The translations under genes were made by a program, and so were the position numbers. A stretch of DNA of 44,882 nt from Prevotella sp. (lineage in GTDB: Bacteria; Bacteroidota; Bacteroidia; Bacteroidales; Bacteroidaceae): positions 1 to 44,882 of the forward strand of contig JAFZIL010000010.1 in NCBI GenBank assembly GCA_017554385.1, written 5' to 3'. Below, piece by piece: positions 5,758 to 44,882 of this stretch. The notes under the pieces are model-generated. The model was not told where the DNA came from. It worked only from the letters and a program-made list of their open reading frames with translations, and did no database searches. Every line of letters starts with the position of its first letter. Positions within the stretch are counted from its first letter, which is position 1.

Positions 5758-5827
5758 GCGGTAGCAAATTCTTCACTATTCACTTTTCACTCTTCACTTT
5801 TCACTCTTCACTTTTCACTCTTCACTT
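5758..5827 (-). repeat. Heptamer array with TTTGCTACCGC junction
   Basis: Eight perfect 7-nt units (plus strand TTCACTA, then TTCACTT and TTCACTC alternating, giving a 14-nt higher-order period) lie at 5772-5827. They are followed at 5758-5771 by the junction that reads GAATTTGCTACCGC on the minus strand. The junction abuts the permease ATG. The rbfA stop codon (TGA, 5822-5824) lies inside the eighth unit, so the array fills the intercistronic gap exactly. It is the same family as the elements at 24454, 33048 and 44811. Confidence 0.9.
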
Positions 5828-6157
5828 CTTGAGCAGTTCGTCGATGTGGTCAATATAGTCGAGCGAATCGTCAATGAAGAAGCGCAGTTCGGGGATGATA
5901 CGCAGCTGGTAGCGCACGCGCTGTCCCAGCGTATAGCGTATCTGCGCCTGGTTCTTCGAGATGTTCTTCAGCAGCTCCTCGCCCCGCTCCGAGGGGAAGA
6001 TGCTCAGGTAAGCGGTACAGATGCTCAAGTCGGGCGACACCTTTGTACGCGTCACCGATACCATCACACCGTGCATACCCCGCGTCTGTTCCTGAAAAAT
6101 GACGCTCAGCTCCTTCTGAAGCAGCCGGGCTATCTTGTTCTGTCTTGTCTCTTGCAT
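5822..6157 (-). CDS. rbfA: 30S ribosome-binding factor A
   Basis: 111-residue cytoplasmic KH-fold protein that helps mature the 16S rRNA 5' end and the 30S subunit. The N-terminus MQETRQNKIARLLQKELSVI and the central VSVTRTKVSPDLSICTAYLS block match RbfA, as does the C-terminal RIIPELRFFIDDSLDYIDHIDELL, and the length is typical. It is the first gene of a minus-strand transcription unit with a clear Bacteroidetes promoter upstream (6182-6211). The stop codon is supplied by the heptamer array that follows. Confidence 0.95.
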   Translation of the reverse strand: MQETRQNKIARLLQKELSVIFQEQTRGMHGVMVSVTRTKVSPDLSICTAYLSIFPSERGEELLKNISKNQAQIRYTLGQRVRYQLRIIPELRFFIDDSLDYIDHIDELLKK

Positions 6158-6181
6158 AATCGTAAAAATTTAATTCCGATG

Positions 6182-6211
6182 CAAAGGTACAACATTTCTC
6201 CGAATAAACAA
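6182..6211 (-). promoter_or_regulatory. Bacteroidetes-type promoter for rbfA
   Basis: On the minus strand TACCTTTG (6182-6189) matches the -7 consensus TAnnTTTG. A TTG (6209-6211) lies 19 bases upstream, matching the -33 box spacing of the Bacteroidetes housekeeping sigma factor. It precedes the rbfA ATG by about 25 bases. Confidence 0.75.
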
Positions 6212-6243
6212 GCAAGAAAAACAGAAGAAATCATTCTATGCCG

Positions 6244-7560
6244 TCACAGCGTATGCTTTATTTCGAGGTATTTGTTGATGACATCTACCGAAAGCTGACG
6301 GGGCGTAGAGAGTAGAGAATGAATGCCGTACTGGCGCAGCGTCTGCACGATGAGCCGCTGTTCGTAGGCAAACTTCTCGGCAATGACATGCTGGTAATAG
6401 TCTTCGGTCGATACCGAGGACGTGCCGATGAAAGCCCGTTGCTCCTCATCTTCGAAGAATACGACAAGGAGTCGGTGGCGCAGGGCCAACTGTCGGAGAT
6501 AGGGCAGTTGGCGGTTGAGCGAGGTCATGCCGGTGAACGAAGTATAGAGCACCACAAACGAACGGCGGCTTACGCGGTGGGAGAATCCAGTGAGCAGGGC
6601 CGAGAAGTCGCTCTCGGCAAACTGTGTCTGTTCGGCATAGAGTGCTTCTTGCAGATGCCGCATGTGGCCTGGCTGGTTCGATGCCGATACAAAGGTCTCG
6701 AATTTGTCACTGAAGGTGGCGAGTCCAGCGTGGTCGCCTTTGCGTACGGCAACATAGGAGAGCACCAAAGCGGCATTCACAGCGTAGTCGAGCAACGTCA
6801 TGCCTTCGAAGGCCTGCTGCATCATGCGACCTTTGTCAATGACGCTGAACATAGGCTGCGAACGTTCTTCCTGGTATTGGTTCACCATGAGTCGCAGTCC
6901 CGACAGCGAGCGGCGAGCAGTGGCCCGCCAGTTAATGGTACGATAATCGTCGCCCGCCACGTAGTCCTTGATCTGCTCAAAGTCGGTGTTGTGGCCTATT
7001 CGGCGTATGCGCTTCAATCCCATCTCATGCAGGTTGTTGCTCATGGCCAACAGTTCGTACTGACGCAGCATCAGATAGCCGGGATAGACCTTTACGTCCT
7101 TCGACTCACCGCAGGTAAAGCGGCGCTGCACCAGACCCATGGGCGTCATGGCGAACACGCGAATGCGTCCGAAACTATAAGTACCTCGCTTGGTGGGAAT
7201 GAGCTGGTAGTCGATGGTCGCCACGTTATGGGCGGCCACGTCGGCCTTGAAACAGACATCCCGCCGCTGGAAAACGAAGGGGATCTCGTCAATGACTTCT
7301 AAGCTTATCGGCCACGAATAGTCGTTGTTCACGTGCAGCTGTACGGTATTTGCATCGCCATTGGAGAAGCGGTCACTGCAAGTGCGTTGTCCGCTTATAC
7401 CTTTCTTTATATATAACAGAGCAAGGTCGGCTATCACAGCCACGACCAGCAACCACCACGCCCATCGTCCGATAACGAACAACGGGTGCAGCCAGTAGCC
7501 AGTGGTAATGGTCAGCACAATGGCAGTAGCCAGTAGATAGAATCTTCGTGTGAAGTACAT
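6244..7560 (-). CDS. DUF58 family protein (MoxR partner)
   Basis: 438-residue membrane-anchored protein with two closely spaced N-terminal hydrophobic segments (about 8-50). The C-terminal half carries the DUF58 signature AGDDYRTINWRATARR and a von Willebrand A-like region (SVIDKGRMM, VVLYTSFTGM). DUF58 proteins occur next to MoxR AAA ATPases and are thought to be acted on or matured by them; the biochemical role is not established. Here it is the last gene of the minus-strand operon SpoIIM-DUF4129-DUF4350-MoxR-DUF58, 45 bases after the MoxR gene. Confidence 0.9.
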   Translation of the reverse strand: MYFTRRFYLLATAIVLTITTGYWLHPLFVIGRWAWWLLVVAVIADLALLYIKKGISGQRTCSDRFSNGDANTVQLHVNNDYSWPISLEVIDEIPFVFQRRDVCFKADVAAHNVATIDYQLIPTKRGTYSFGRIRVFAMTPMGLVQRRFTCGESKDVKVYPGYLMLRQYELLAMSNNLHEMGLKRIRRIGHNTDFEQIKDYVAGDDYRTINWRATARRSLSGLRLMVNQYQEERSQPMFSVIDKGRMMQQAFEGMTLLDYAVNAALVLSYVAVRKGDHAGLATFSDKFETFVSASNQPGHMRHLQEALYAEQTQFAESDFSALLTGFSHRVSRRSFVVLYTSFTGMTSLNRQLPYLRQLALRHRLLVVFFEDEEQRAFIGTSSVSTEDYYQHVIAEKFAYEQRLIVQTLRQYGIHSLLSTPRQLSVDVINKYLEIKHTL

Positions 7561-7605
7561 TCTTCTTTACTCCTTAACTCCCTTTCTTCTCATCTGTTAT
7601 TACTC

Positions 7606-8583
7606 CTACTTCGGTACTTCCACTTTCTCAATCAGTGCGAGCACCACACGTTGAGGTGTCAGCTCCTCCATCTCGGCTTCGGCGGTGAGGATGATACGGT
7701 GGGCAAGCACTGACGGCGCTACCTGCTTGATGTCGTCGGGGGTCACGAAATCGCGTCCCTGCAGCAGGGCGTATGCCCGCGAGGCCTGCATGATGGCCAC
7801 CGAGGCACGTGGCGAGGCACCGAGGAAGATGGTCTTGCTCTGCCGCGTCTGCTCAATGATCTGCGCCATGTAGCGTAGCAGAGACGGCTCTATGTAGACC
7901 TGACGCATCGACTGTCTCAACTCCAACAGTTCATCTTGGGTGATGAAAGGTGTGAGCGACTCGAGCTGTATGGCGGGCGACTGATCGAGATGACGGTTAA
8001 GAATCTCGACTTCCTCGTCGACGGTTGGATAGCCCATCGTGATTTTCATCATGAAACGGTCCAACTGGGCCTCGGGCAGCTTGTAGGTACCTTCCTGCTC
8101 CACAGGGTTCTGTGTAGCCAGAATGGTGTAGAGCGGTCCCATGGGGTGGCGCTCACCGTCGACGGTGACCTGCCGTTCCTCCATGACCTCGAAGAGTGCG
8201 GCCTGTGTTTTTGCTGGTGCGCGATTAATTTCGTCGACTAATACGATGTCGCCAAAGACAGGACCCGGATGGAAGGAGAACTGTTGGCTCTGCATGTTAA
8301 ACACGGTAGTGCCCAGAACATCACTCGGCATGAGGTCGGGCGTGAACTGAACGCGGCTGAAACGGGCGTCGATAAGCCGTGCTATCAGCTTTGCCAACAA
8401 CGTTTTTGCCACGCCAGGGACACCCTCAATAAGTACGTGGCCGTCGGCCAGAATGGCAGTGAGTATCAGTTCTACGGCCTCTTTCTGGCCTACGATGATT
8501 TGTGCAATCTGGTAGCGCAACAGTTGAATCTTCCCGGCGAAGAGGCTCAGGTCGGTGCGGGGGGTGGTTGTGGAATCTTGCAT
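7606..8583 (-). CDS. MoxR-type AAA+ ATPase
   Basis: 325-residue cytoplasmic ATPase. Walker A is EGVPGVAKTLLAK, Walker B with the MoxR-specific extension is IVLVDEINRAPAKTQAALFEVMEE (named only by its ends, IVLVDE to EVMEE), followed by sensor 1 (ILATQNP) and the arginine-finger region RFMMKI. Length and motifs are standard for the MoxR/RavA group, chaperone-like ATPases that act on neighbouring DUF58 or VWA proteins. Its partners here are the DUF58 gene downstream and the DUF4350 and DUF4129 genes upstream. The leader between the DUF4350 stop and this ATG is a tandem nonamer array. Confidence 0.93.
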   Translation of the reverse strand: MQDSTTTPRTDLSLFAGKIQLLRYQIAQIIVGQKEAVELILTAILADGHVLIEGVPGVAKTLLAKLIARLIDARFSRVQFTPDLMPSDVLGTTVFNMQSQQFSFHPGPVFGDIVLVDEINRAPAKTQAALFEVMEERQVTVDGERHPMGPLYTILATQNPVEQEGTYKLPEAQLDRFMMKITMGYPTVDEEVEILNRHLDQSPAIQLESLTPFITQDELLELRQSMRQVYIEPSLLRYMAQIIEQTRQSKTIFLGASPRASVAIMQASRAYALLQGRDFVTPDDIKQVAPSVLAHRIILTAEAEMEELTPQRVVLALIEKVEVPK

Positions 8584-8643
8584 ATTACTTTAGGGTTATG
8601 GGGCTAATTGGGCTAATTGTGCCTATGGGGCTAATGGGCCTTT
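8584..8643 (-). repeat. Nonamer tandem array in the MoxR leader
   Basis: About five degenerate 9-nt units, read on the minus strand as GCCCCATAA, GCCCAATTA, GCACAATTA, GCCCCATAG and GGCCCATTA. The array fills nearly the whole gap between the DUF4350 stop and the MoxR start. The same unit family, also just upstream of an ATG, occurs at 44054-44093, and a four-unit version is in frame in the esterase at 31347. Confidence 0.85.
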
Positions 8644-9868
8644 AGGGTGGTGTGAGGGCGTTTAGACGGTCAATGTATTCGCGCATCTGCTGAGCGGTGA
8701 GTCCCAGGTGGGCGTTTATCATTTTGCGCACGTCCTTGATGGTCTTTTCAGCCTCGTCAGTGTTGAGACTTGTGTTCTGAGCGATAACGGCAGCCGAGTG
8801 CTGGTCGTCTTGCGGGTCGGTGATGTCGATATGAAGTCTGCGTCGCAGATGCTCGGCGGTATACCGGAACTTCTTCTCGACCAAGTCGGCATGATTGCCT
8901 TGCTCGTTATAGAGTGTTCCTATGAGGCGCACAAACTCGAGTGCGTGGTTCTGCGGAGCACCCACCACGGGTATGGCGCGCTGACGGCGCCGTGCGTTGG
9001 TCAGCATGAAGAGCAATATGAGCAGGATGGCTAATCGCCACGCCCATCGCAGTGGTGGCTGGGTGTTGATGTAGTCGAGCATTGCCAGCGGGTCCTCCTC
9101 ACGTGTCTGAGCGCTTGTCTTCAGCGGTACTCGGCGTACGGGCATATCGCCAAACTGCGACAACAGGCGCATGATCAGTTGTGAGCCGCGTCCGCTGAGC
9201 ATGCCGTAGTTGGTGAAGAGCAGTGGCATCGAGACGAGAACGATTTTGCCACGTCCCAAAGGGATGCTTACAGCCACGGGCTGCTGCACGAACTCTGTTG
9301 TATGACGTGCCAGTTCCTCTTTAGGTAGCGAATCGCCTACCATGAGCGACGTGTTCTGCAACACTGAATGTATGGGGAATGAATCACGCGGATACACATC
9401 GCTATGTCCTGTCCATACGACGTCCTTCAGGGAGTTATGCAGGCCCATTTCCTTTTCCAAGTCATTTTCATTAATAGTGAACATTTTCGATGTCCACACA
9501 TCGAGCGAGTCGGCTGTTACCTGGCCGAAGTTTGTACTGGCAATCATCACGCAATGTCCCTCGCGGGCAAGGTTCATCAGCAAGCCCATCTCATTGGCAG
9601 TAAGCTTCAGCCTGTAGGTTACGATGAGCCATCCCTTCGGTCCGCCTTCTTTCATTTCGCTGAACGACAGCGGATGTGTTTGTACCGTATAGCGGTCGCC
9701 CATCGAAGCAGTTACCATCCGGTCGAACAGCTGACAGCCGAAAGGCTCGGCATCGTCGTGGCCGAAAGTGGGTTCCCATTCGAAACTGCGCTTCTTTGTG
9801 AGCATCGACAGGCATACAACGGCAATGAAGCCCAGCACGATGATGGCGAAGATACGTATACCTTTCAT
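8642..9868 (-). CDS. DUF4350 domain protein
   Basis: 408-residue membrane protein. An N-terminal membrane segment (about 5-23) is followed by a periplasmic domain with the DUF4350 pattern (GWLIVTYRLKLTANEMGLLMNL, start and end regions only; then GHCVMIAST; later VSIPLGRGKIVLVSMPLLFTN in part). A second membrane segment lies near residue 280 before a basic RRRQR stretch and a cytoplasmic tail. DUF4350 resembles glutamine-amidotransferase-like envelope proteins found in MoxR operons; its function is unknown. It overlaps the upstream DUF4129 gene by 4 bases (ATGA), which implies translational coupling. Confidence 0.8.
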   Translation of the reverse strand: MKGIRIFAIIVLGFIAVVCLSMLTKKRSFEWEPTFGHDDAEPFGCQLFDRMVTASMGDRYTVQTHPLSFSEMKEGGPKGWLIVTYRLKLTANEMGLLMNLAREGHCVMIASTNFGQVTADSLDVWTSKMFTINENDLEKEMGLHNSLKDVVWTGHSDVYPRDSFPIHSVLQNTSLMVGDSLPKEELARHTTEFVQQPVAVSIPLGRGKIVLVSMPLLFTNYGMLSGRGSQLIMRLLSQFGDMPVRRVPLKTSAQTREEDPLAMLDYINTQPPLRWAWRLAILLILLFMLTNARRRQRAIPVVGAPQNHALEFVRLIGTLYNEQGNHADLVEKKFRYTAEHLRRRLHIDITDPQDDQHSAAVIAQNTSLNTDEAEKTIKDVRKMINAHLGLTAQQMREYIDRLNALTPP

Positions 9869-13586: not shown

Positions 13587-13727
13587 ATTATAGTTTATAG
13601 TGGATAGTTGATAGTGGTTAGTTATGATTACCTAATTGGTACGGCCGAGGCCCAGTCATTATAAGAAGGGCACCATGAGTAATCATAACTATAAACTATA
13701 CACTATCCACTATTCACTAAAATAAGT
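13587..13727. repeat. Palindromic heptamer-armed element (TTATGATTA junction)
   Basis: The left arm (13589-13623) is five 7-nt units of the TATAGTK/GATAGTK kind leading into TTATGATTACC. The right arm (about 13679-13720) is its imperfect inverse. The loop of about 45 bases contains a GGCCGAGGCC palindrome. The element occupies essentially all the space from the metK stop codon to the next ATG. The inner junction TTATGATTA is shared with the in-frame insert in rnr at 33731-33813. It may also act as a terminator or attenuator. Confidence 0.85.
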
Positions 13728-16162: not shown

Positions 16163-16258
16163 TGAAGAGGAAGTTAGAGGAAGTTAGAAGAAGTTAGAGG
16201 AAGTCAGGAGAAGTTATCAGCCTTCGGCCTTAGGAAGTTAGAGGGTCCTGACTTCCTT
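16163..16258. repeat. Decamer array with hairpin, likely convergent terminator
   Basis: About five degenerate 10-nt units (GAAGTTAGAG type) begin right after the yidD stop codon. They lead into a hairpin: a perfect 12-bp stem formed by 16198-16209 and 16246-16257, enclosing a smaller GGCCGAAGGC-type palindrome (CCTTCGG). It lies between convergent genes and can terminate both. The build, tandem units feeding an inverted repeat, matches the other repeat elements here but with a 10-nt unit. Confidence 0.75.
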
Positions 16259-24241: not shown

Positions 24242-24287
24242 TGTTTTTATTGTTAAATGTTTATTGTTTAATGTTCTTTTGCGGGTG

Positions 24288-24295
24288 CAAAGGTA
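24288..24295 (-). promoter_or_regulatory. Promoter -7 box for pckA
   Basis: Minus-strand TACCTTTG, exact TAnnTTTG, about 47 bases upstream of the pckA ATG. No TTTG at the standard -33 spacing. Confidence 0.6.
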
Positions 24296-24434
24296 CGAAA
24301 TAAATGACAAATGAAAGATGATAAATGAGGAATTTTGTGCGCACACAACGCTTTTTTGGTTAAAAGTATGAAAAATCGCGTCTTCAATTAAAGTTTTGCT
24401 ACCCGCACATGGCAAAAGATTGGAATTATTTGCC

Positions 24435-24453: not shown

Positions 24454-24503
24454 TAAGGGAAAAGTGCAAAATGAAAAGTGAAAAGTGAAAAATTTGCTAC
24501 AGC
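24454..24503 (+). repeat. Heptamer half-element with TTTGCTACAGC junction
   Basis: Five 7-nt units (TAAGGGA, AAAGTGC, AAAATGA, AAAGTGA twice) run into AAAATTTGCTACAGC. The outer AAGGGA end and the inner junction match the left arm of the in-frame rnr element at 33048. No complementary arm follows. The array supplies an in-frame ATG at 24478 that would add 15 residues (MKSEKFATANKSNLI) in front of the lipoprotein signal of the downstream peptidase. Confidence 0.85.
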
Positions 24504-29777: not shown

Positions 29778-29840
29778 GAAAAAGTGAAGAGTGAAGCACT
29801 TCATTGAGCACGCTTCACTCTTCACTTCTCACTTTTCACC
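29778..29840. repeat. Heptamer-armed palindrome between convergent genes
   Basis: A perfect 16-bp stem (29782-29797 with 29812-29827) made of GTGAAGA-type heptamers, plus two further heptamers on the right side and a 14-base loop. It lies between the GH35 stop and the AraC stop, so it can serve as a bidirectional terminator. The arms use the same unit as the elements at 5758 and 33048, but the inner junction differs. Confidence 0.85.
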
Positions 29841-30776: not shown

Positions 30777-32117
30777 ATGAAAACCTTTACAATGAAGAAA
30801 CTATGGTTACTACTTGTGCTTGGCATGCCGGTTTGGGCTCAGGCACAAACCTATGATACCCACTATGCACGACCCTTACACAATGTAGCTCAGGAAGTTG
30901 AACGACAGTTCCATGTAAAGCTGCGCTTCGATATGGACACGACAGGTCTGACATTGCCATACGCCGACTTCCGCATACGTCCCTACTCTGTCGAGGAGAC
31001 GCTAACTAATATCTGCCGTTATTATGACTGGAACTGGTGGCCGCGCAAGAACAACCTCTATCGTATTAGCCGCTTCGAGTACTATCGCCGCCATGAGAAC
31101 GAAGGACGTGAGATGATTGCATGGCTCAACAAATTATATAATAGCAAGGAGGAATGGGAACATCGACGCGGACAGCTTATCAGTGAAGTACGCCAACGGC
31201 TTGGCATCGACGCATTTCTCGACTCCTGTGTGGCCGACCCGAAACCCATATTAGGCAAGATGCACCGCCACAACGGCTATACCACCCAGAATATCTGTCT
31301 TGAACTTACGCCCGGCCAACATGTATTCGGCACTATCTATGCTCCTTATAGATCCCATAAGCCCCATAAAGCCTATAGTTCCTTGTCTCCCCTCATCATC
31401 TGCCCCGACGGCCACTGGCCCTCACGTTATCGCGATGACGAGCAACAGCGATTAGGCACACTTGCACGAATGGGAGCTGTCTGTGTGGACTTCGATCTCT
31501 ATGGCTACGGACAGTCGAAGGAGGAAGTGGGTGAACATGCCGTGGCGCGTGCCCATGTGTTCCAGGCTGCCTGTGGACTGAAACTCCTTGACTACATGCT
31601 ACGCTATCGACGAGACATCGACATCACCCGTATTGGTGTCTGTGGCGGCAGTGGCGGTGGCACCCACACCATCCTATTAGCACTGCTGGCCGAGAGCTTC
31701 GGCATGCCACGTATTGCGGCCATTGCTCCGGTAGTCCATGTGGCCTCACACTTCGATGGTGGCTGTCCCTGCGAAAGCGGCATGCCCGTACAGTTGGCCT
31801 GTGGAGGCACCTGTGAACCTGAACTGGCTGCAACCTTCGCTCCTCGCCCTATGCTCGTGGTAAGCGACGGCGGTGATTGGACGTCCACTGTACCCGAACT
31901 TGAGCTGCCCTACTTACAGCGCATCTACAGTTTTTACGACAATGCCGACCGTGTGGAGAATGTCCACTTGCCCGACGAGCGTCACGACTTTGGTCCCTCA
32001 AAACGACAGGCCGTCTACGACTTCTTTGCCCGTGTCTTCGGTCTTGACCGCTCTAAGGCCAACGAGGATCTCGTTACCATCCAGCCAGAGGATGATCTAA
32101 AAACCCTCCATTTCTAA
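30777..32117 (+). CDS. Secreted acetyl-xylan-esterase-like alpha/beta hydrolase with N-terminal STN-like domain
   Basis: 446-residue exported protein. The start at 30777 gives MKTFTMKKLWLLLVLGMPVWAQAQ (in part), a signal peptide; the second ATG at 30792 is also possible. Mature residues about 25-100 (NVAQEVERQFHVKLRF, YSVEETLTNICRYYDWNWW) resemble the STN/DUF4974 fold used in TonB-transducers. The C-terminal alpha/beta hydrolase has nucleophile S292 in CGGSGGGTHT, a likely acid in VVSDGGDWT and histidine in DERHDFG. The family includes acetyl-xylan esterases. Four exact 9-nt repeats (31347-31382) encode YRS-HKP-HKA-YSS in a loop before the LIICPDGHWP strand. It diverges from the AraC regulator. 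Confidence 0.8.
   Translation: MKTFTMKKLWLLLVLGMPVWAQAQTYDTHYARPLHNVAQEVERQFHVKLRFDMDTTGLTLPYADFRIRPYSVEETLTNICRYYDWNWWPRKNNLYRISRFEYYRRHENEGREMIAWLNKLYNSKEEWEHRRGQLISEVRQRLGIDAFLDSCVADPKPILGKMHRHNGYTTQNICLELTPGQHVFGTIYAPYRSHKPHKAYSSLSPLIICPDGHWPSRYRDDEQQRLGTLARMGAVCVDFDLYGYGQSKEEVGEHAVARAHVFQAACGLKLLDYMLRYRRDIDITRIGVCGGSGGGTHTILLALLAESFGMPRIAAIAPVVHVASHFDGGCPCESGMPVQLACGGTCEPELAATFAPRPMLVVSDGGDWTSTVPELELPYLQRIYSFYDNADRVENVHLPDERHDFGPSKRQAVYDFFARVFGLDRSKANEDLVTIQPEDDLKTLHF
31347..31382 (+). repeat. In-frame nonamer array inside the esterase gene
   Basis: Four consecutive 9-nt units (TATAGATCC, CATAAGCCC, CATAAAGCC, TATAGTTCC) in register with codons, encoding four tripeptides. The unit family matches the intergenic arrays at 8584 and 44054. 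The encoded stretch falls between two conserved beta strands of the hydrolase, as expected for a tolerated loop insertion. Confidence 0.8.
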
Positions 32118-32158: not shown

Positions 32159-32166
32159 TATATTTG
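32159..32166 (+). promoter_or_regulatory. Promoter -7 box for rnr
   Basis: TATATTTG fits TAnnTTTG. It overlaps a TTG at 32164 that would otherwise be an upstream in-frame start, so translation must begin downstream at 32197. Confidence 0.55.
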
Positions 32167-32196
32167 CGGTCGAACAACAACAAAAATAATAGTATT

Positions 32197-34551
32197 ATGG
32201 GTAAGAAAGGTGGAAAACGAATGAATAAACAGGATGTAGCCAATGCCCTACAGGCCCTGTTTCAGGCACATCCGCAGGATACGCTGAACTTCAAGTATAT
32301 CTTCAAGGAACTGAAGTTGAATACACATCCGCTGAAGATGCTGGCCATCGACGTGATGGAAGAGATGGCGTGGGATGACTGGCTCTCGAAGGTATCGGAC
32401 AACTCTTATAAGCTAAACCTGAAGACGCAGGTGCAGGAGGGCACGTTCATCCGCAAGGCCAACGGCAAGAACTCGTTCATGCCCGACGACGGTGGCAAGC
32501 CCATCTTCGTCTCTGAGCGCAACTCGATGTTCGCCCTCAACGGCGACCGCGTACGCGTGGCGATGATGGCGCGGCGTCAGAACCATATCAAGGAAGCTAT
32601 CGTCACCGAGATCCTGCAACGCAAGCACGACCAAGCCGTTGGTCAGCTACAGGTCGAGAAAGATTTCGCTTTCCTCATCACCGAGGGCAAGTTCTTCGTG
32701 CACGACATCCTTATACCGAAGAAGAAGCTCAAGGGTGGCAAGACCGGCCAAATGGCTGTTGTGAAGATTACGCAGTGGCCGTCGAAGGACTCTAAGCAGC
32801 TCATCGGTGAGGTTGTCGACGTACTTGGCGAACAGGGTAACAACGACGTGGAGATGCACGCCATACTCGCGCAGTACGGCTTGCCATACAAGTACCCGAA
32901 GCGCGTGGAGGAGGCTGCCGAGAAGATTGACGCCACCATCACCCCAGAAGATATTGCCGAACGCGAGGACTTCCGCGAAGTCACCACTTTCACCATCGAC
33001 CCCAAGGATGCGAAAGACTTCGACGATGCACTATCTTTCAGAAGGATAAAGGGAAAAATGAAAAGTGAAAAATTTGCTACCGCAGCAGCATCCACGGCGG
33101 AAGCAAATTCTTCACTTTTCACTGATCACTCTTCCCTTTATGAGGTCGGTGTCCACATCGCCGATGTCACCCACTACGTTACCGAGGGAAGCATCATCGA
33201 CCGTGAGGCACAGGAGCGCGCCACCAGCGTCTACCTCGTCGACCGTACCGTGCCCATGCTGCCCGAACGGCTCTGCAACTTCATCTGCTCGCTGCGCCCC
33301 GACGAGGACAAGCTGTGCTATAGTGTGGTCTTCGTTTTTGACGAAGACGCCAACATCAAGTCATGGCATCTGGCACATACCGTCATCCGCTCGAATCGCC
33401 GCTTCGCCTACGAGGAGGTACAGCAGATTCTGGAGCAGAACGGCGTAGTACCAGGCTCTGGACAACCCGCACCGCCTGCCACGAAGAAAAAACCCTACAC
33501 AGGGGAACTGGCCAACGAGCTCATCATGCTTGACCGCATGGCGAAGAAGCTACGCGAGCGCCGCTTCAAGAACGGGGCCGTGCGCTTCGACCGCGAGGAG
33601 CTACACTTCGACGTCGACGAGAAAGGCCATCCTACTCGTTGTTACTTCAAAAAGTCAAACGATGCTACCCAACTTATCGAGGAGTTCATGCTGCTGGCCA
33701 ACCGCACCGTTTCAGAAGCTGTTGCGAATGGAGAATTAGGAGTGAAGGATTATGATTACCATGGTGGTTATGCCGATATCAAGTCTAATCATAATCCTCA
33801 ATCCTCAACTCTCAATACTAAATCCAAGAAAAAGACCTTCGTCTACCGCATCCACGACCAGCCCGACCCACAGAAGCTGGAGAACCTGCGACAGGTGGTC
33901 AGCGGCTTCGGCTACAAGCTGAAGACCAGCGGTACGCGTGGTGCCATCTCGAAGAGCCTGAACCAGCTGATGGCCGACGCACAGGGCCGACGTGAGCAGA
34001 ACCTTGTGGAGACCGTGGCTCTGCGAGCAATGATGAAGGCTAAGTACTCGACCCATAACATCGGCCACTACGGACTGGCCTTCGACTATTACACCCACTT
34101 CACCTCGCCCATACGCCGCTACCCCGACACTATGGTCCACCGGCTTCTTACAAAGTATCAGCAGGGCGGACGCTCGGCCAACCAGGACCACTACGAGGAG
34201 CTATGCGAGCATTCGAGCGACATGGAGCAGACAGCTGCCAACGCCGAGCGCGACAGCATCAAATATAAGATGGTGGAGTTCATGGCCGACAAGGTGGGGC
34301 AGAAGTTCGACGCCCACATCAGCGGTGTGCAGTCGTACGGCATCTACTGCGAGATTGACGAGAACCACTGCGAGGGCCTTGTGGGTATGCATGACCTCGA
34401 CGGCGACTACTACGAGTTCGACGAGCGCAACTTCTGTCTTGTGGGCCGACGCCACCACAAGAAATACCAGTTAGGCGACCCTGTGCGTATTCAAGTGGCG
34501 CGGGCCAACATCGAAAAAAGACAATTAGACTTCATACTTGCCGATGACTAA
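32197..34551 (+). CDS. rnr: Ribonuclease R with two in-frame repeat-derived inserts
   Basis: 784-residue 3'-5' exoribonuclease that degrades structured RNA. The ATG at 32197 (MGKKGGKRMNKQDVANAL) follows a promoter box. Order: N-terminal helix-turn-helix-like region, cold-shock domains (about 60-230), RNB catalytic domain with metal-binding D268, D274, D276 and D277 in TIDPKDAKDFDDALSF, and a C-terminal S1 domain (GQKFDAHISGVQSYGIYCEI in part). Two stretches are foreign to the family: about residues 285-314 (KMKSEKFATAAAS...), just after the catalytic aspartates, and a second of about 30 residues before KKTFVYRIHDQPDP. Both are encoded by heptamer-armed palindromes. Motifs on either side are intact, so the enzyme is probably active. 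It overlaps the next gene by 8 bases. Confidence 0.95.
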   Translation: MGKKGGKRMNKQDVANALQALFQAHPQDTLNFKYIFKELKLNTHPLKMLAIDVMEEMAWDDWLSKVSDNSYKLNLKTQVQEGTFIRKANGKNSFMPDDGGKPIFVSERNSMFALNGDRVRVAMMARRQNHIKEAIVTEILQRKHDQAVGQLQVEKDFAFLITEGKFFVHDILIPKKKLKGGKTGQMAVVKITQWPSKDSKQLIGEVVDVLGEQGNNDVEMHAILAQYGLPYKYPKRVEEAAEKIDATITPEDIAEREDFREVTTFTIDPKDAKDFDDALSFRRIKGKMKSEKFATAAASTAEANSSLFTDHSSLYEVGVHIADVTHYVTEGSIIDREAQERATSVYLVDRTVPMLPERLCNFICSLRPDEDKLCYSVVFVFDEDANIKSWHLAHTVIRSNRRFAYEEVQQILEQNGVVPGSGQPAPPATKKKPYTGELANELIMLDRMAKKLRERRFKNGAVRFDREELHFDVDEKGHPTRCYFKKSNDATQLIEEFMLLANRTVSEAVANGELGVKDYDYHGGYADIKSNHNPQSSTLNTKSKKKTFVYRIHDQPDPQKLENLRQVVSGFGYKLKTSGTRGAISKSLNQLMADAQGRREQNLVETVALRAMMKAKYSTHNIGHYGLAFDYYTHFTSPIRRYPDTMVHRLLTKYQQGGRSANQDHYEELCEHSSDMEQTAANAERDSIKYKMVEFMADKVGQKFDAHISGVQSYGIYCEIDENHCEGLVGMHDLDGDYYEFDERNFCLVGRRHHKKYQLGDPVRIQVARANIEKRQLDFILADD
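33048..33139. repeat. Palindromic heptamer element in frame in rnr (copy 1)
   Basis: The left arm (33048-33083) is AAAGGGA, AAAATGA, AAAGTGA and the junction AAAATTTGCTACCGC. The right arm (33097-33139) is the inverse with one extra heptamer and the junction reading ATTTGCTTCCGC. The loop is 13 bases. Both outer ends read AAAGGGA inward. It is translated without a stop and adds about 29 residues between two conserved RNB motifs. Confidence 0.9.
33731..33813. repeat. Palindromic heptamer element in frame in rnr (copy 2)
   Basis: Left arm 33731-33758 and right arm 33786-33813 are inverted copies (21 of 28 positions pair, with the inner 12, GGATTATGATTA, perfect), separated by a 27-base loop. 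The junction TTATGATTA is the one used by the element after metK. The translated product is rich in Asn, Gly and Tyr and interrupts the RNB domain in a non-conserved place. Confidence 0.85.
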
Positions 34552-39269: not shown

Positions 39270-39275
39270 ATAGAA

Positions 39276-39359
39276 ATGAGGTATGAGATATGAGGTATGA
39301 AGTATGAGGTATGAGGTATAAGGTATGAATTATGAAGTATGAGATATGAGTTATGAGTT
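39276..39359 (+). repeat. Twelve-unit heptamer array abutting the Omp28 ATG
   Basis: Exactly twelve 7-nt units of the ATGAGGT type (variants ATGAGAT, ATGAAGT, ATAAGGT, ATGAATT, ATGAGTT) run without interruption to the ATG at 39360. Nearly every unit carries the overlapping stop-start ATGA, and because 7 is not a multiple of 3 the ATGs fall in all three frames. The array begins 6 bases after the DUF6029 stop codon. No inverted arm is seen. Confidence 0.92.
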
Positions 39360-40196
39360 ATGACTGAAGAAATAAGAAGAACCTATCACCGTGTTGTCAG
39401 TGTGTGCTGCGGTTTTGCCGCAGCCCTCTCCCTTGTCGCGTGCAGCAACATTGCCGACGACGAGCGACTGATTTACGTGAAACCGGCCGACGTGGCCCGC
39501 AAGGTGCTCATCGAGGACTTCACCGGCCAGCGCTGCATCAACTGCCCACGGGCCACCCTCGTCATCGGGAAGCTACAGGAGGAGTACGGCCACGACGCCG
39601 TAATCGCCGTGGGCATACACTCAGGCCCGTTAGGCTTCAAGGGCACACCCACGCTCACCGGCTTAGCCACCGAGCTGGGCGACGAGTACTACAGCCATTG
39701 GGGCATAGAATACCAGCCTCAGGGACTGGTCAACCGCACGGGCCGTTGCGACTACCAGCTGTGGGCCACCGAGGTCGACAAGCTCATCACTCAGCAGTCG
39801 TCGCTACAGATGGACATGGACTGCTTCTACAACGAAGAGACACGCGAGGTTGTCGTCGACCTGACCACCCTTGGCACCAACGGTACTACCGACGGCCGTC
39901 TTCAGCTCTGGGTCACAGAGGACAGCATCACCGCCATGCAGCTGCGCTACAACGAAATCGACAATCCCTCCAGCGGACAGCTGAGCGACGGCCAGTATGT
40001 GCACAACCACGTGCTGCGCCATGCGGTCAACGGTACTTGGGGCGACGACTTCCATTGCACCGAGGGCGAGCAGCAGCAACTACACTACACCTTCACCGCC
40101 GATGCCTTGTGGCGACCCGAACAGATTTCTGTCGTGGCTTTCGTCTACAACGAAGAGGGCGTCGTACAAGTGGAACAAAAGAAAATCATTCAATAA
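39360..40196 (+). CDS. Omp28-related lipoprotein
   Basis: 278-residue lipoprotein with lipobox LSLVAC (lipid-attached C28). The Omp28 domain (about 45-275) starts with KVLIEDFTGQRCINCPRAT, where C59 and C62 form a thioredoxin-like CxxC, and includes VIAVGIHSGPLG and the later beta-rich part. Omp28 proteins are surface or periplasmic proteins of Bacteroidetes of unclear function. Bases 39400-39448, which encode the signal peptide (VCCGFAAALSLVACS), recur in the next gene in another reading frame. The ATG is the last one provided by the heptamer array; an internal start is less likely as it would lose the signal. Confidence 0.85.
   Translation: MTEEIRRTYHRVVSVCCGFAAALSLVACSNIADDERLIYVKPADVARKVLIEDFTGQRCINCPRATLVIGKLQEEYGHDAVIAVGIHSGPLGFKGTPTLTGLATELGDEYYSHWGIEYQPQGLVNRTGRCDYQLWATEVDKLITQQSSLQMDMDCFYNEETREVVVDLTTLGTNGTTDGRLQLWVTEDSITAMQLRYNEIDNPSSGQLSDGQYVHNHVLRHAVNGTWGDDFHCTEGEQQQLHYTFTADALWRPEQISVVAFVYNEEGVVQVEQKKIIQ
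39400..39448 (+). repeat. Duplicated palindrome-containing segment, copy A
   Basis: 49 bases that match 40318-40366 at 46 positions. The segment contains the palindrome CTGCGG-TTTTG-CCGCAG. Here it encodes the hydrophobic core and lipobox of the Omp28 lipoprotein signal. Confidence 0.85.
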
Positions 40197-40203
40197 AAAC
40201 ATC

Positions 40204-42192
40204 ATGCCAATGAAAAGAATCTTTACGTTTTTCACCGCTCTTGTCCTGACGGGAGCAGTAGACATGCAGGCACAGAACGTGTGGCAGAAGGGCTGGGTCG
40301 ATGCCCAGGCACAGAACGTGTGTGCTGCGGTTTTGCCGCAGCCCTCTCCCTCGTCTCATGCAGCAAAGAAAGCCACCATCGAGCCCGCAGAGAACCAGAA
40401 CTGGTGGGGCTTTGTCAGCACTTCAAGCACAAAATACGGACTGGGCGTAGGGGCTACCGACACCTACCATTGTGCAGTGTTCATTCCTGGTACTCACATC
40501 GTGGCTGGCGGAAAAACCATCCACGCCGTGCGCTTCGGACTGGTGGCTCCCAACGCCAGCGATGCAAAGGTGTGGATAGCCAGTCAGCTGCCATCCGACA
40601 TCAACGAAACCAGCTGCATCGATGTGGTCGAGGTGAACGCAGACGAACTGAAAAGCGATTGTATCGATGTGAATCTCTCGGCCCCCTACACCATTCCCGA
40701 AGAAGGCGTTTACGTAGGCTACTCGTTCACCATCAACAAAGTGCAATTCTCGAGCGATGCCTATCCGGCGCTCTTCACTGGCGAAGAGTTTAATAACAGT
40801 TTCTATATACGCACAAAGACAAAGCAGAAATCATGGATAAGCATGTATGGTAACGGTTATGGTTCCCTGTTCCTACAGGTGCTGCTCGAAGGTACGTTCG
40901 AAGACAACATTGCTGCAGTAGTGCCATTGAACATCGGTAAATACTATACAAAACTCGGCGAGCAGGCTATGGTCAACCTGACACTGGCCAATCTCGGCAC
41001 GTCGCCTATTACCAGCATCGATTACCAAATAGGCAATGCAAACAGCGAGGAACTGAGCGAGCAGCAGCACATGGATCTTGAAACGCCCATTCCTTTCGTC
41101 TCGTCCGAGCTTATCAGCCTTCCCGTTGACCCGCAACCGGAAATTGGAAGCAAGCAGATGACACTACATGTTACGAAAGTCAACGGCGAGGAGAACAAGC
41201 TCGTCTACTCCGACCCCCACTACAACTACACCAACTTCAACCTCTATACGCTTTCCGACATCATCGAGCGCAACGTTGCAGTCGAGGAGTACACAGGTAC
41301 GGGCTGCGGCTGGTGCCCGCGCGGACTCATCGGTATGGACAAGCTGCGCAAGACTTTCGGCGACCGTTTCATTGGTATCGGCCTGCATCAGTATAACAGC
41401 GGCGACGCCATGTTCATCGCCAAGAATGCTTACGCCAACGTGAACTTCAGCGGTGCACCCTCCTGTCGCATGAACCGCAACGACGAGATAGACCCGTACT
41501 ATGGCGTAGGTACAGACATCTGCGACGACTTCCGCGCCGAGATGGCCATCCCTGCCCTGGTAGCAGTGACGGTGAGCGGCATGTGGAACGAAGAAAAGAC
41601 CGAGGTAGAGGCCAAGGCTACGGTATCGCCACTCTTCGACAGCTCGTTCAAGCTTGAGTTCGTGCTCGTTGGCGACGGTCTGACAGGTACGGGAAGTGGC
41701 TGGACGCAGTCCAACTACTACTGCGACTATTCGTCGTCAGAGTTACCTGACGACCTGACCATCTTCGGGTCCGACGGCAAGTATGGCTCGTCAAGCATCA
41801 CTGGTTGGAAGTTCAACGACGTGGCCCTGAGCAGCTCCTACACAAGCAGCCAGAACCAAGTTTCCGCACTCGATGACTTGCAGACAGAAGTACCCGTGGA
41901 CATAGACTATACACTCAAACTGCCCACAAAGACCACACTGCTAAATGCCATCAAGAAAGACCAGGTCTACGTCGTAGCACTGGTCATCAGCCCCGACGGC
42001 ACCATAGCCAATGCCGCCAAGGCCAAGGTCGAGGACTACGACCCCACGGGCATCAACACAGCACCAACCACGCTGCAGTCGACGGTGGCAGGCAGCTACT
42101 CGCTCACCGGTCGCCGTCTCACGGCTCCGCAAAAAGGCCTGAACATCGTGCGTACCGCTGACGGAAAGACTCAGAAAATCATCGTCAGATAA
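40204..42192 (+). CDS. Large Omp28-related secreted protein
   Basis: 662-residue exported protein. The start at 40204 (MPMKRIFTFFTALVLTGAV) gives a signal peptide ending MQAQ; the frame runs open upstream but only through the previous gene. A beta-sandwich N-terminal half (about 60-350) precedes an Omp28 domain with C368 and C371 in VEEYTGTGCGWCPRGL. The protein ends in the tail YSLTGRRLTAPQKGLNIV...GKTQKIIVR. Near the N-terminus a 39-base tandem repeat (AQNVWQKGWVDAQ/AQNV) is followed by the 49-base segment shared with the previous gene, read out of frame as CAAVLPQPSPSSH. In the other frame the segment still reads as a lipobox (LSLVSCS), and losing one A near 40364 would join it to KKATIEP. 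Confidence 0.85.
   Translation: MPMKRIFTFFTALVLTGAVDMQAQNVWQKGWVDAQAQNVCAAVLPQPSPSSHAAKKATIEPAENQNWWGFVSTSSTKYGLGVGATDTYHCAVFIPGTHIVAGGKTIHAVRFGLVAPNASDAKVWIASQLPSDINETSCIDVVEVNADELKSDCIDVNLSAPYTIPEEGVYVGYSFTINKVQFSSDAYPALFTGEEFNNSFYIRTKTKQKSWISMYGNGYGSLFLQVLLEGTFEDNIAAVVPLNIGKYYTKLGEQAMVNLTLANLGTSPITSIDYQIGNANSEELSEQQHMDLETPIPFVSSELISLPVDPQPEIGSKQMTLHVTKVNGEENKLVYSDPHYNYTNFNLYTLSDIIERNVAVEEYTGTGCGWCPRGLIGMDKLRKTFGDRFIGIGLHQYNSGDAMFIAKNAYANVNFSGAPSCRMNRNDEIDPYYGVGTDICDDFRAEMAIPALVAVTVSGMWNEEKTEVEAKATVSPLFDSSFKLEFVLVGDGLTGTGSGWTQSNYYCDYSSSELPDDLTIFGSDGKYGSSSITGWKFNDVALSSSYTSSQNQVSALDDLQTEVPVDIDYTLKLPTKTTLLNAIKKDQVYVVALVISPDGTIANAAKAKVEDYDPTGINTAPTTLQSTVAGSYSLTGRRLTAPQKGLNIVRTADGKTQKIIVR
40318..40366 (+). 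repeat. Duplicated palindrome-containing segment, copy B
   Basis: Second copy of the 39400-39448 segment, 918 bases away, 46 of 49 identical, but translated in a different frame. It is preceded by a 17-base direct repeat, CAGGCACAGAACGTGTG, at 40267 and 40306 (39-base period). Confidence 0.85.
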
Positions 42193-42266
42193 ATCGACAC
42201 GCATCAACCCTCTGATGCAACATCTGGCTTAACGCTATTCGCAACGAGTTCTCGCCCGTTGTCCTC

Positions 42267-42324
42267 ACAGGGGCTGTTTGACCTGCAAACAGCCCCTGTC
42301 AGCAGGTCAAACAGCCCCTGTCAG
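42267..42324. repeat. CAAACAGCCCCTGTCAG palindrome with an extra direct copy
   Basis: A perfect 14-bp hairpin (42267-42280 with 42286-42299, 5-base loop) followed by a second direct copy of CAAACAGCCCCTGTCAG (42309-42324 region). The same string forms the hairpin at 22497-22535. It is about 75 bases after the Omp28 stop codon and probably terminates that transcript. Confidence 0.8.
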
Positions 42325-42454
42325 CGAGGTAATAAAGTATGGATTGGCTATGCGTGAACAGCTATTACCGCATCGGGGAAACCGCATTCCTCAATTGAGC
42401 ACCACGTCATAGCTGCGAATTATAGGGCACTCCAGAAAATATTTAAGAAAAAAA

Positions 42455-42485
42455 TTGGTGGTGTCACAAAAAAGCACTACCTTTG
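42455..42485 (+). promoter_or_regulatory. Bacteroidetes-type promoter for tRNA-Gln
   Basis: TTGG (42455-42458), 19 bases, TACCTTTG (42478-42485): a full match to the -33/-7 pattern, with the mature tRNA starting 40 bases later. Confidence 0.85.
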
Positions 42486-42524
42486 CACGCGAATTCGTGA
42501 AGGATTCTCACTTGATACAAAGAT

Positions 42525-42595
42525 TGGACGATGGTGTAATGGTAACACTACAGGTTTTGGTTCTGTCATTCCCGGTTCGAATCCGAGTCGTCCAA
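42525..42595 (+). tRNA. tRNA-Gln (anticodon TTG)
   Basis: 71 bases that fold as a cloverleaf. Acceptor stem TGGACGA/TCGTCCA (42525-42531 with 42588-42594) and discriminator A at 42595. Anticodon stem ACAGG/TCTGT (42550-42554 with 42562-42566) with loop TTTTGGT and anticodon TTG at 42557-42559, reading CAA/CAG. The T-loop is TTCGAAT, with one C-A mismatch in the T stem. The 3' CCA is not encoded, as is usual for this group. Confidence 0.95.
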
Positions 42596-42603
42596 CATCA
42601 GCG

Positions 42604-42638
42604 AAGCCTCTGCTACACCATTGTTGCAGGGGCTTTTT
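42604..42638 (+). terminator. Intrinsic terminator after tRNA-Gln
   Basis: A 10-bp stem (AAGCCTCTGC at 42604-42613 with GCAGGGGCTT at 42626-42635, one G-U pair), a 12-base loop and a T run (42634-42638). It lies 8 bases after the tRNA and 20 bases before the next ATG. Confidence 0.85.
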
Positions 42639-42658
42639 AACCTAAAACCCTACAAGCA

Positions 42659-44053
42659 ATGAATGCACCCTATGCTCGCCGTCGTGCGCAGCTGAGCAAG
42701 GATATGGGCAGCGGATTGCTGCTCTTCCTTGGCAACAACGAAGTAGGCATGAACTATGCCGACAACACCTACCGTTTCCGTCAGGACAGCACCTTCCTCT
42801 ATTTCTTCGGACTGGACTACCCCGGCCTGGCCGCTATTATCGACGTTGACGAAGACCAGCAGATTGTCTTCGGCAACGAGCTGACCATCGACGACATCGT
42901 GTGGACGGGCACCCAGCCCACCCTACGCGAGAAGGCTGCCACCGTAGGCATCGGTCAGACGCTGCCCATGAGCGAGCTGAAAAACTATATCGTCAAGGCA
43001 CAGCGCAAGGGTCAACCCGTGCATTTCCTGCCGCCTTATCGGGGCGACCATCAGGTGCAGCTGCTTGAGCTCTTGGGCATTCTTCCCGCCGAACAGGCAG
43101 AGCGCTCGTCGCTGCCCTTTATCAAGGCCATCGTAAAACAGCGTAACTACAAGGACCTGGACGAGATACGCGCCATCGAGGAGTCGGTCGACATCAGTAC
43201 TGAGATGCACCTTGCCGCCTATCGCAAGGTACGTCCTGGCGTACACGAGAGCGAGGTGGCCGCCGTCGTCGAAGAGGTGGCCTGCCGCCACGGCAACGCC
43301 CTCGCCTTCCCCACCATCGCCACCGTGCAGGGCCAGGTGCTCCATAACCACGGTTTTATTCATGAGCTACGCGAGGGCGACATCTTCCTGCTCGATGCTG
43401 GTGCCGAGACGCGCACCCATTATGCGGGCGACCTCTCGTCGTCGATGCCTGTTGGCGAGCGGTTCACGCAGCGACAGGCCGAGGTCTATGAGATACACCT
43501 GCGCAGTTTCCAGGCTGCCATCGACACGCTGAAAGTCGGCGTGCCCTTCCGCAACGCCCACATCGCCGCTGCCACCGAGATTGCCAGGGGCATGAAGGAG
43601 TTAGGGTTGATGAAGGGTGACCCTGCCGAAGCTGCCGAATGCGGTGCCTACGCACTGTTCTTCCCCTGCGGACTGGGCCACATGGTGGGTCTCGACGTAC
43701 ACAACATGGAGAACCTGGGCGAGCAATATGTGGGCTATGCCGAGGGCGAACAGAAGTCTACGCAGTTCGGCTTCAAGTCGCTGCGCCTTGCCCGTCCGTT
43801 AGAGCCTGGTTTCGTCTTTACCGTAGAGCCAGGCATCTACTTCATCCCCGAGCTCATGGACAAGTGGGAGGCCGAGGGCCAGTTCCGCGACTTCATCTGC
43901 TACGACCGCCTCGGTCCCTGGCGCGACTTCACCGGACTGCGCAACGAGCTGAACTACGCCGTCATGCCCGACGGCACCGTGCGCCAGCTCGGCACCATCC
44001 GCAAGCCCATGACCATCGAAGAGGTATATGCCGCAAAATCCCTTAACCCATAG
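42659..44053 (+). CDS. Xaa-Pro aminopeptidase (M24 family)
   Basis: 464-residue cytoplasmic metallopeptidase that removes the N-terminal residue before a proline. An aminopeptidase-P N-terminal domain (about 1-130) precedes the pita-bread catalytic domain. All five metal ligands can be placed: D246 (LLDAGAE), D258 (YAGDLSSSMPVG), H341 (GLGHMVGLDVH), E390 (FTVEPGIYF) and E430 (GLRNELNY). Substrate-binding residues sit in FPTIATVQGQVLHNHG. There is no signal peptide. The neighbour downstream is a hydroxyproline-dehydratase-like enzyme, which fits a shared role in using proline- or hydroxyproline-containing peptides. Confidence 0.95.
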   Translation: MNAPYARRRAQLSKDMGSGLLLFLGNNEVGMNYADNTYRFRQDSTFLYFFGLDYPGLAAIIDVDEDQQIVFGNELTIDDIVWTGTQPTLREKAATVGIGQTLPMSELKNYIVKAQRKGQPVHFLPPYRGDHQVQLLELLGILPAEQAERSSLPFIKAIVKQRNYKDLDEIRAIEESVDISTEMHLAAYRKVRPGVHESEVAAVVEEVACRHGNALAFPTIATVQGQVLHNHGFIHELREGDIFLLDAGAETRTHYAGDLSSSMPVGERFTQRQAEVYEIHLRSFQAAIDTLKVGVPFRNAHIAAATEIARGMKELGLMKGDPAEAAECGAYALFFPCGLGHMVGLDVHNMENLGEQYVGYAEGEQKSTQFGFKSLRLARPLEPGFVFTVEPGIYFIPELMDKWEAEGQFRDFICYDRLGPWRDFTGLRNELNYAVMPDGTVRQLGTIRKPMTIEEVYAAKSLNP

Positions 44054-44093
44054 ACCTATAGCCCTATAGGCCCTATTAGCCCCATTAGTCCCA
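44054..44093 (+). repeat. Nonamer tandem array in the hypD-like gene leader
   Basis: About five 9-nt units (AGACCTATA, GCCCTATAG, GCCCTATTA, GCCCCATTA, GTCCCATAA) begin right at the stop codon of the M24 gene and end 7 bases before the next ATG. It is the same unit family and same position relative to a start codon as the array upstream of the MoxR gene (8584-8643). Confidence 0.85.
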
Positions 44094-44100
44094 TAAAAAA

Positions 44101-44882
44101 ATGAACTATAGCATCAAACACCCCGAGAACCTGGGCGGCATGAACGACCGCATACGCCGCCTGCGCCAACAGAACTTCGACACACCGACAACGCTGAGCA
44201 TCGAGCGTGCACTCATAGAGACCACATTCTACAAAGAGCACTACGGCACGATGTCAACGCCCGTATTGCGTGCCCGTAACTTCTACGAGATCTGTAAGAA
44301 GAAAACCATCTTTATCGGTCCCGACGAACTGATCGTTGGCGAGCGCGGACCGAAGCCGAAGGCCGTGCCGACATTCCCCGAGCTGACCTGCCACTCGGTC
44401 GAAGACCTGCACACGCTGAACGAACGCGAGCTGCAACGCTACACCATCTCGCAGGAAGACATCGATACCTACGAGCGCGAGGTTATTCCATACTGGAAGG
44501 GCAAGACGCAGCGCGAGCGCATCTTCAACCACGTCTCGAAGGAGTGGGAAGAGGCCTACCACGCCGGTGTGTTCACCGAGTTCATGGAGCAGCGTGCCGC
44601 CGGCCATACGGCCATGGACGGCAAGATGTACCACGAGGGACTGCTCGCCGTGAAGGCTCGCATCCAGCGGAAGATTGACAGCCTCGATTATATCAACGAC
44701 CCCGAGGCCACTGACAAGCAGCAGGAGCTGGAAGCCATGGCCATCTCGTGCGACGCCGCCATCCTCTTTGCCGAGCGGCACGCAGAGCTGGCAGAGAAGA
44801 TGGCCGAGGAGTTGAGTGTAGAGTGTAGAGTTGAGAGTGTAGAGTTTGCTACCGCCATCCCCAAGGGCGAGGTTGAAGGGAC
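44101..44882 (+). CDS. hypD: Glycyl radical enzyme, trans-4-hydroxy-L-proline dehydratase-like (partial)
   Basis: The first 260 residues of a gene that runs off the window. Family blocks match what I recall of C. difficile HypD: LSIERALIETTFYKEHYG, DELIVGERGPKPKAVPTFPE, EAYHAGVFTEFMEQRAAGHT, LEAMAISCDAAILFAERHAELAEKMAEE (the last in part). HypD dehydrates trans-4-hydroxyproline with a glycyl radical installed by a radical-SAM activase (HypE); the catalytic Cys and Gly lie beyond the window. After KMAEE an in-frame heptamer array encodes LSVECRVESVEFATAI, which is not part of the family. Other glycyl radical dehydratases or PFL-like enzymes remain possible until the active site is seen. Confidence 0.8.
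   Translation, partial: MNYSIKHPENLGGMNDRIRRLRQQNFDTPTTLSIERALIETTFYKEHYGTMSTPVLRARNFYEICKKKTIFIGPDELIVGERGPKPKAVPTFPELTCHSVEDLHTLNERELQRYTISQEDIDTYEREVIPYWKGKTQRERIFNHVSKEWEEAYHAGVFTEFMEQRAAGHTAMDGKMYHEGLLAVKARIQRKIDSLDYINDPEATDKQQELEAMAISCDAAILFAERHAELAEKMAEELSVECRVESVEFATAIPKGEVEG
44811..44856 (+). repeat. In-frame heptamer array with TTTGCTACCGC junction
   Basis: Five 7-nt units (GTTGAGT, GTAGAGT twice, TGAGAGT, GTAGAGT) run directly into TTGCTACCGCC. The junction is that of the elements at 5758, 24489 and 33069, although the heptamer unit is different. All three frames are visited by the array, yet the reading frame in use has no stop. A complementary arm, if present, would lie past the window end. 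Confidence 0.88.

Follow-up and report, generated by a model that had tools for sequence, protein, structure and literature searches.

Short palindromic elements with fixed cores and exchangeable heptamer arms in Prevotella genomes

Dispersed heptamer repeats and short palindromes lying in frame in genes have both been described in bacteria, and elements with features of each were found in a 44,882-nucleotide stretch of a Prevotella sp. genome (the window) and in related genomes. Their arms are tandem heptamers pointing inward to one of two cores, core1 (TTTGCTACCGC) or core2 (TATGATTA facing its inverted partner TAATCATA). Described systems are compared here from the available parts of their publications. 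GGGAATC arrays of Xanthomonas are dispersed, have mostly four units and, in two species, also form convergent pairs, 70 in one and 75 in the other (PMC4692102). The Prevotella elements share this four-copy convergent plan and, with these arrays and the GGGGAYT repeats of Nostoc (PMC4692102), a 7-nt period, dispersion and partly conserved unit positions. The Xanthomonas and Nostoc repeats differ in having one G-rich word, a G-quadruplex reading and 89-93% intergenic location, and the available account describes neither a conserved core nor an exchange of words (PMC4692102); Prevotella words such as AGTGAAA, AGTGTAG and AATTCAT lack the G-runs of a quadruplex, having no run of three G. The TAACTGA repeats of Beggiatoaceae, Cyanobacteria and five Bacteroidetes (PMC4679880) are likewise heptamer arrays found in several phyla, with indels in 7-nt steps between sister strains and a frequent position just before start codons, but they keep one word across species and no palindrome with a core is described in the part available.

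Rickettsia palindromic elements (PMC10969869) are short palindromes of several families lying in frame in unrelated genes, a location shared by the Prevotella palindromes. Compared by description, they differ in their length of ~150 bp and their conserved peptide, and exchangeable heptamer arms go unmentioned in the text available. The BrickBuilt miniature inverted-repeat transposable element (MITE) of Porphyromonas gingivalis also joins a tandem array and inverted ends in a member of the Bacteroidota, but its unit is 23 nt long, it has a leader and a tail, and the array lies inside rather than forming the arms (PMC4596501). GTAG-tagged repetitive extragenic palindromes (REPs), which go with REP-associated tyrosine transposases (RAYTs), are short and dispersed and some are within genes (PMC3733652); they differ in that no RAYT is linked to core1 at the examined loci. 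With tandem 7-nt units spread in the genome, mostly in few copies, the Prevotella arrays belong among dispersed heptamer repeats. Fixed cores with exchangeable words, an equal arm length in two core families, and a change of word at orthologous sites are not described for known heptamer repeats in the parts of those accounts available, and none of the papers listed by literature searches, judged by title and opening of the abstract and with most subscription journals outside the coverage, deals with these Prevotella elements.

The reading favoured here, with a chance somewhat better than even, is that they are families of very short non-autonomous mobile elements, palindromes copied whole whose arms evolve in concert. 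The basic piece is a half-element, an arm that most often holds four tandem heptamers and the first 2-3 nt of another and that points inward to a conserved core of 8-11 nt; such halves stand single or face one another across a loop of 13 to ~55 nt. An enzyme encoded elsewhere would copy the elements to new sites. Slippage or unequal exchange in 7-nt steps would homogenise the units within an arm, so that the word would drift between lineages; both arms would share a word because one subfamily spreads, and selection would keep open-frame copies inside genes.

The usual core1 element has four heptamers, 2 nt and the core, 41 nt in all, with sharp outer ends: information content drops from 1.15 to 0.28 bits between positions -30 and -31, one base past the fourth unit (190 arms). 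Exactly four units were counted in 104 of 191 arms from 13 genomes, three in 23 and none in 12, with a tail of up to 19. This set comprises all 53 matches of the source genome (G000; 3.06 Mb, 98 contigs, 81% complete), whose contig 2 is the window, and a part of the matches in 12 relatives chosen by an exact core or pair pattern (for instance 20 stretches of G031, which has 43 matches); units were counted by the consensus AGTGNAG or by likeness to the preceding unit, and related elements are not independent of one another in the arm statistics. At nearly every one of the 53 printed G000 sites C-poor heptamers lead into the core. Fifteen of these cores face an inverted core across a loop, so that inverted repeats with sharp ends, as in MITEs, are present, though 38 of the 53 copies have no partner core. 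Common units fit A-R-T-K-D-A-D, with positions 1, 3 and 6 well conserved. Neighbouring units within an arm are more alike (0.848) than when units are permuted within the genome (0.798, and at most 0.809 in 500 permutations). Two arm types differ at position 5 of the unit: 87 arms have A there in every one of the four units (A-type) and 75 have it in none (T/G-type), 15 arms being intermediate and 13 not scorable; the base before the core follows the arm type in 160 of 162 arms.

The usual four units, the sharp ends and the conservation of positions 1, 3 and 6 would also suit binding sites of an oligomeric DNA- or RNA-binding protein, with elements kept for gene regulation and the word following the shifting specificity of the protein. 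A number of single core1 elements lie, by eye, close to start or stop codons, as such a role would have it. This explanation is rather unlikely, since elements also lie inside unrelated open reading frames (ORFs) and are missing from many orthologues, and several words coexist within one genome.

The core2 element is the clearest form of a conserved core with free arms. Its arms have four heptamers plus 3 nt and end as sharply as those of core1 (0.93 to 0.16 bits from -31 to -32; 89 arms, ~40 of them from two genomes). The word varies by genome (AATTCAT, AATGTAG, AATGAGT, AGATGAA, AAGTAAT, AACTGAG), and the 3 nt preceding the core usually match the start of that genome's word. Taking one element per genome (27 elements, several without one or both arms), arm likeness is 0.67 within an element and 0.42 between genomes, and 0 of 10,000 shuffles did as well. 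Core2 pairs occur in 50 of 150 genomes, G000 included, against one in each of four genomes for the reversed control; G028 (99% complete) has 14 core2 pairs and no core1.

In the window, a reading made from the sequence alone (the sequence-only reading) had listed fixed-period arrays with two conserved inner junctions and freely varying units. Tandem Repeats Finder recovered these arrays, with period 7 (in some also 14) at 5770, 13590, 13688, 24455, 29809, 33053, 33111, 33793, 39276 and 44814, period 9 at 8601 and 44059, and period 10 at 16166; the sole array it did not return, among rows at score 30, is the 9-mer at 31347. The junction TTTGCTACCGC, placed by that reading in four elements, is exact in three (5758 on the reverse strand, 33073 and 44845 on the forward strand) and has one mismatch at 24493 and 33097; with one mismatch allowed the five matches compare with 0.60 expected, and 0 of 100 shuffles reach five. 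The second junction, TTATGATTA, which belongs to the core2 family, has four matches in two inverted pairs against 0.14 expected, and no shuffle reaches four. The plan of a conserved core with same-period arms and freely varying units is real, and shuffles do not produce it. The features of the window are as follows.

5758-5827, reverse strand: core1 half-element, ~eight A-type heptamers and then the core, flanked by the rbfA ORF, whose last bases it overlaps, and by an FtsX-like permease ORF
13592-13718, forward strand: core2 palindrome (L396) between an S-adenosylmethionine synthetase ORF and a DUF4271 ORF; both arms hold units such as AGTGGAT and AGTTTAT
24463-24503, forward strand: core1 half-element whose core (TTTGCTACAGC) has one mismatch; it overlaps the 5' end of an M3 peptidase ORF as mechanically listed
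29778-29839, no strand assigned: heptamer arrays that converge, as do the ORFs on either side; neither core1 nor core2 is present
32164-34551, forward strand: RNase R-like host gene (RNB domain, E 9.3e-103) with two in-frame insert sites
33043-33137, forward strand: complete core1 palindrome, in frame inside the RNase R ORF; four heptamers and AA (33043-33072), core TTTGCTACCGC (33073-33083), 13-nt loop, inverted core GCGGAAGCAAA with one mismatch (33097-33107), right arm (33108-33137)
33720-33824, forward strand: core2 palindrome in the RNase R gene; TATGATTA at 33751-33758 and TAATCATA at 33786-33793, with ~three clear units in the left arm and four in the right
39276-39363, forward strand: long ATGAGGT heptamer array of 12.6 copies, without core1 or core2
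44815-44855, forward strand: core1 element built of T/G-type heptamers and lying in frame within a pyruvate formate-lyase-like ORF; its partner half is not visible because the contig ends 27 nt past the core

An Rfam scan of the window returned a tRNA as its sole match. Two heptamer arrays beyond those listed by the sequence-only reading lie at 24246-24328 (starts 24246 and 24302; words TTTATTGTTAAATG and AAATGAA). The arrays of period 9 (8601-8639, 44059-44094) and period 10 (16166-16216) have ~4-5 copies of GGGCTAATT, TAGCCCCAT and AGAGGAAGTT, words that bear no relation to the heptamers, and may be separate from the heptamer elements.

Seven is the commonest tandem period both in the window and round RNase R in 80 other loci. 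At a stricter threshold the window holds four arrays of period 7 and one each of periods 10, 14 and 22, none of which appear in 20 shuffles. The 610,977 bases round RNase R (best 80 of 587 relatives, with titles mostly Prevotella or Prevotellaceae) contain 32 arrays of period 7, 12 of period 14, 10 of period 8, nine of period 22, five each of periods 9 and 15, and 0-3 of any other, a spectrum that includes the RNase R inserts themselves; three shuffles of this set gave no arrays except of period 2. Four or five copies are present in 42 of 56 period-7 arrays of these loci.

Genome-wide, core1 has 53 matches in G000 against two for the reversed pattern. Among 118 other genomes, at least nine copies are found in 11 of 71 genus-mates, with 43, 46, 48, 42 and 31 in G031, G034, G066, G041 and G059 (controls there 0-4), and never more than five in 47 genomes of other families. 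The exact paired core1 pattern occurs in 24 of 200 genomes, G000 included, and its reversed control in none. Within a genome the same families of loops turn up at several loci (for example in G197, G185, G066 and G034, and also in G028), and the families vary from genome to genome; G197 has copies of core and loop without arms (L249, L251). In G031, seven of ten core2 copies clearly carry one AGTGAAG-type and one AACTAAG-type arm, and in two of these seven the types are swapped relative to the loop. CATCAGC arrays give 58 matches at ~17 places in G337, eight in G037 and 0-1 in 17 other genomes. From the recurring loops, the unequal arms of G031 and the spread of CATCAGC, whole elements or arrays look copied. 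Matches to AATGGAG numbered 0-5 per genome; in several genomes the reversed control had more, since the word read in reverse also forms a heptamer array. The G337 arrays (L359-L375) are core-less GCTGATG arrays at 17 places, one of which (L367) lies in the second conserved gene considered below.

Independent origin of each array by ordinary local slippage is quite improbable. The available account (PMC4692102) describes an excess of heptamer simple sequence repeats in bacteria, with polymerase slippage as a proposed cause; long arrays exist (12.6 copies at 39276), and arms span 0 to 19 counted units; against this, one word stands at many places of one genome and at nearly none in most others, the cores are conserved, four copies are the mode, and the measured inserts in genes stay in frame, which single 7-nt steps would not.

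Those inserts were measured in two genes. The first loop of RNase R was measurable in 105 of 110 loci, at least three of which repeat a contig already counted; it is 24 nt long in 52 and up to 192 nt in others, always a multiple of 3. Many heptamer words are found among its inserts, along with an unrelated CACCCCCAACCCC palindrome and some short inserts of neither kind, and at this site the window's element adds ~30 residues to the protein. The second loop is 57 nt long in 64 of 101 loci and again a multiple of 3 in every case. In the second conserved gene, the insert lengths of all 17 measured genomes share one frame, and by eye nine hold heptamer arrays, two the unrelated palindrome and six neither. 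Long palindromes (ACCCCCAACCCCTCTCC... and its complement) occupy the same loops in L195, L196, L212 and L215 (RNase R) and in L318 and L319 (second gene). In the second RNase R loop the core2 insert of the window encodes YDYHGGY, and L075/L210 and L212 encode YSYHGGY beside other heptamers; these inserts are perhaps one old insert with different arms.

The units do change between genomes at orthologous sites. Between G162 and G197, which have the same neighbours, both arms have changed (GAATGAA and GTGAARA). At a site shared by G000 and G185 one arm is kept and the other, the left, is replaced; the loop differs, with a GCCAGA end on the opposite side. Units have also changed at a site shared by G000 and G157.

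Part of the core1 unit variation follows the reading frame. Scored through the element, arm type and open frame agree in 101 of 123 cases and 0 of 20,000 within-genome shuffles did as well, but this score has some circularity built in, since every forward frame of an A-type arm contains TGA. When the flanks alone are scored, the same frame is open on both sides of 40 of the 48 T/G-type elements and of 23 of the 74 A-type ones; the link is weaker but remains, 91 of 122 elements following the rule, with 5 of 20,000 within-genome shuffles as good. The circularity slightly lowers the standing of the favoured reading and slightly raises that of the repeat-adding polymerase considered below. The flank scoring dropped 71 of 193 core matches: 57 partner cores, nine with unscorable arms, two duplicates, and one each for lying near an end, for a short flank and for having two of four units. 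Fifty-three elements are open along their whole length, and 51 of these use a single phase on each strand (33 in fwd0, 18 in rev2). Read in that phase, an unmodified arm would meet a stop codon, in the second unit if A-type and in the third if T-type. Among the forward-open copies of G000 the stop-prone units are altered (AGGGAAA, AAGGAAA; AACGGAG, AGTTGAG, AGCGGAG) and their neighbours mostly keep the type. Part of the unit variation thus fits selection on reading frames, which would leave that part with no writing machine needed.

Such a machine is the substance of a further explanation, in which a templated repeat-adding polymerase (a reverse transcriptase or a telomerase-like enzyme) writes arms onto broken ends that are then joined at the core, a small RNA template setting the word. 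It would account for the nearly constant arm length of 30 or 31 nt, including a partial fifth unit that follows the word, for arms that both run inward as two extended break ends would, and for a word that varies by genome beside a constant core, with two arms that can differ; there is a precedent in DRT10, which adds 9-nt repeats from a non-coding RNA (PMC12632851, from the part available). Reverse transcriptase genes do not follow copy number: in a comparison of 27 genomes, whose high-copy members are mostly incomplete metagenome bins, 7 of the 13 high-copy genomes and 7 of the 14 low-copy ones have RVT_1 matches, 5 and 6 of them respectively above the curated cut-off. No RVT_1 match was found in G031 (43 core1, 83% complete), G041 (42 core1, 61% complete) or G028. 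As loop families also recur within genomes, synthesis of the arms at each site by such a polymerase is unsupported and this explanation is judged unlikely. What stands of the sequence-only reading is the core and arm plan and the change of units, not the local synthesis of arms.

Movement as REP elements by RAYT (Y1) transposases is similarly improbable. The inverted core contains GTAG, 10 of the 13 high-copy genomes have Y1 matches, as do 8 of the 14 low-copy ones (G056, G023 and G185, which are 56-70% complete, have none), and L298 carries a RAYT-like segment with its own palindromes in frame in another ORF. The GTAG, however, lies inside the stem, and core1 (one mismatch allowed) gave 0 matches at 20 loci from 31 listed Y1 matches, over ~1.5 kb of flank in both directions or as far as the contig reaches. 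By eye, other palindromes stand at the nine RAYT-like loci inspected, and no link of core1 to RAYTs was found at the loci covered. The segment in L298 (G041:C35, 1-3213) lies, by eye, inside an apparent adenine methylase ORF with repeats of GCGACGTGAGACACGTCGCCTCC on either side.

Several observations, this absence of core1 near Y1 among them, weigh against copied mobile elements with arms evolving in concert. No linked transposase was found in the two families searched, Y1 and RVT_1. No base-exact empty site was found: the G000/G034 pair differs in its neighbours on one side, and sequence divergence at the sites in RNase R and the second gene prevents base-exact ends from being placed. No target-site duplication was seen by eye in 61 palindromes. 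The sharp mode at four copies is not predicted by free slippage. The arms of one core1 element are just slightly more alike than arms across elements of the same genome (0.845 within, 0.816 between; 6 of 1,000 shuffles as high), and L004, L037 and L252 are core1 elements with two arms of different type. In G031, core2 arms are less alike within an element (0.68) than between elements (0.76), the opposite of G028 (0.77 within, 0.66 between). The two arms of core2 elements do not mirror each other in the order of their unit variants (3,132 of 5,000 permutations as good, 35 elements). For core1, 4 of 5,000 permutations were as good (59 elements), a result that weakens to 165 of 5,000 without the innermost unit. 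Hairpin-templated correction is unsupported because the variant order is unmirrored in core2.

A broader and unlikely reading would define by geometry rather than sequence a cross-phylum class of elements, with four inward heptamers of almost any word standing single or in inverted pairs about a fixed core, in which a cellular machine, templated or driven by specificity, rewrites all units of both arms while count and core are kept. The four-by-seven geometry shared with Xanthomonas is the part most worth pursuing. No tested mechanism is given in the available accounts of heptamer repeats from Xanthomonas, cyanobacteria, Beggiatoaceae and Bacteroidetes; Prevotella, with hundreds of genomes, alignable sites, sharp arm ends, two cores and exchangeable words, makes the questions of why seven, why four and by what route the word changes approachable by comparison. 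The in-frame residues added to conserved proteins such as RNase R also offer a present-day example in which repeat DNA is turned into protein sequence.

Two further arrangements of core1 were seen. In L021 (1001-1090) two near-identical half-elements lie in tandem, 47 nt apart. In L159, L165, L166 and L171 of G031 a half-element faces, by eye, a core-less array of ~3-4 units of another heptamer, in an intergenic stretch between promoter-like motifs.

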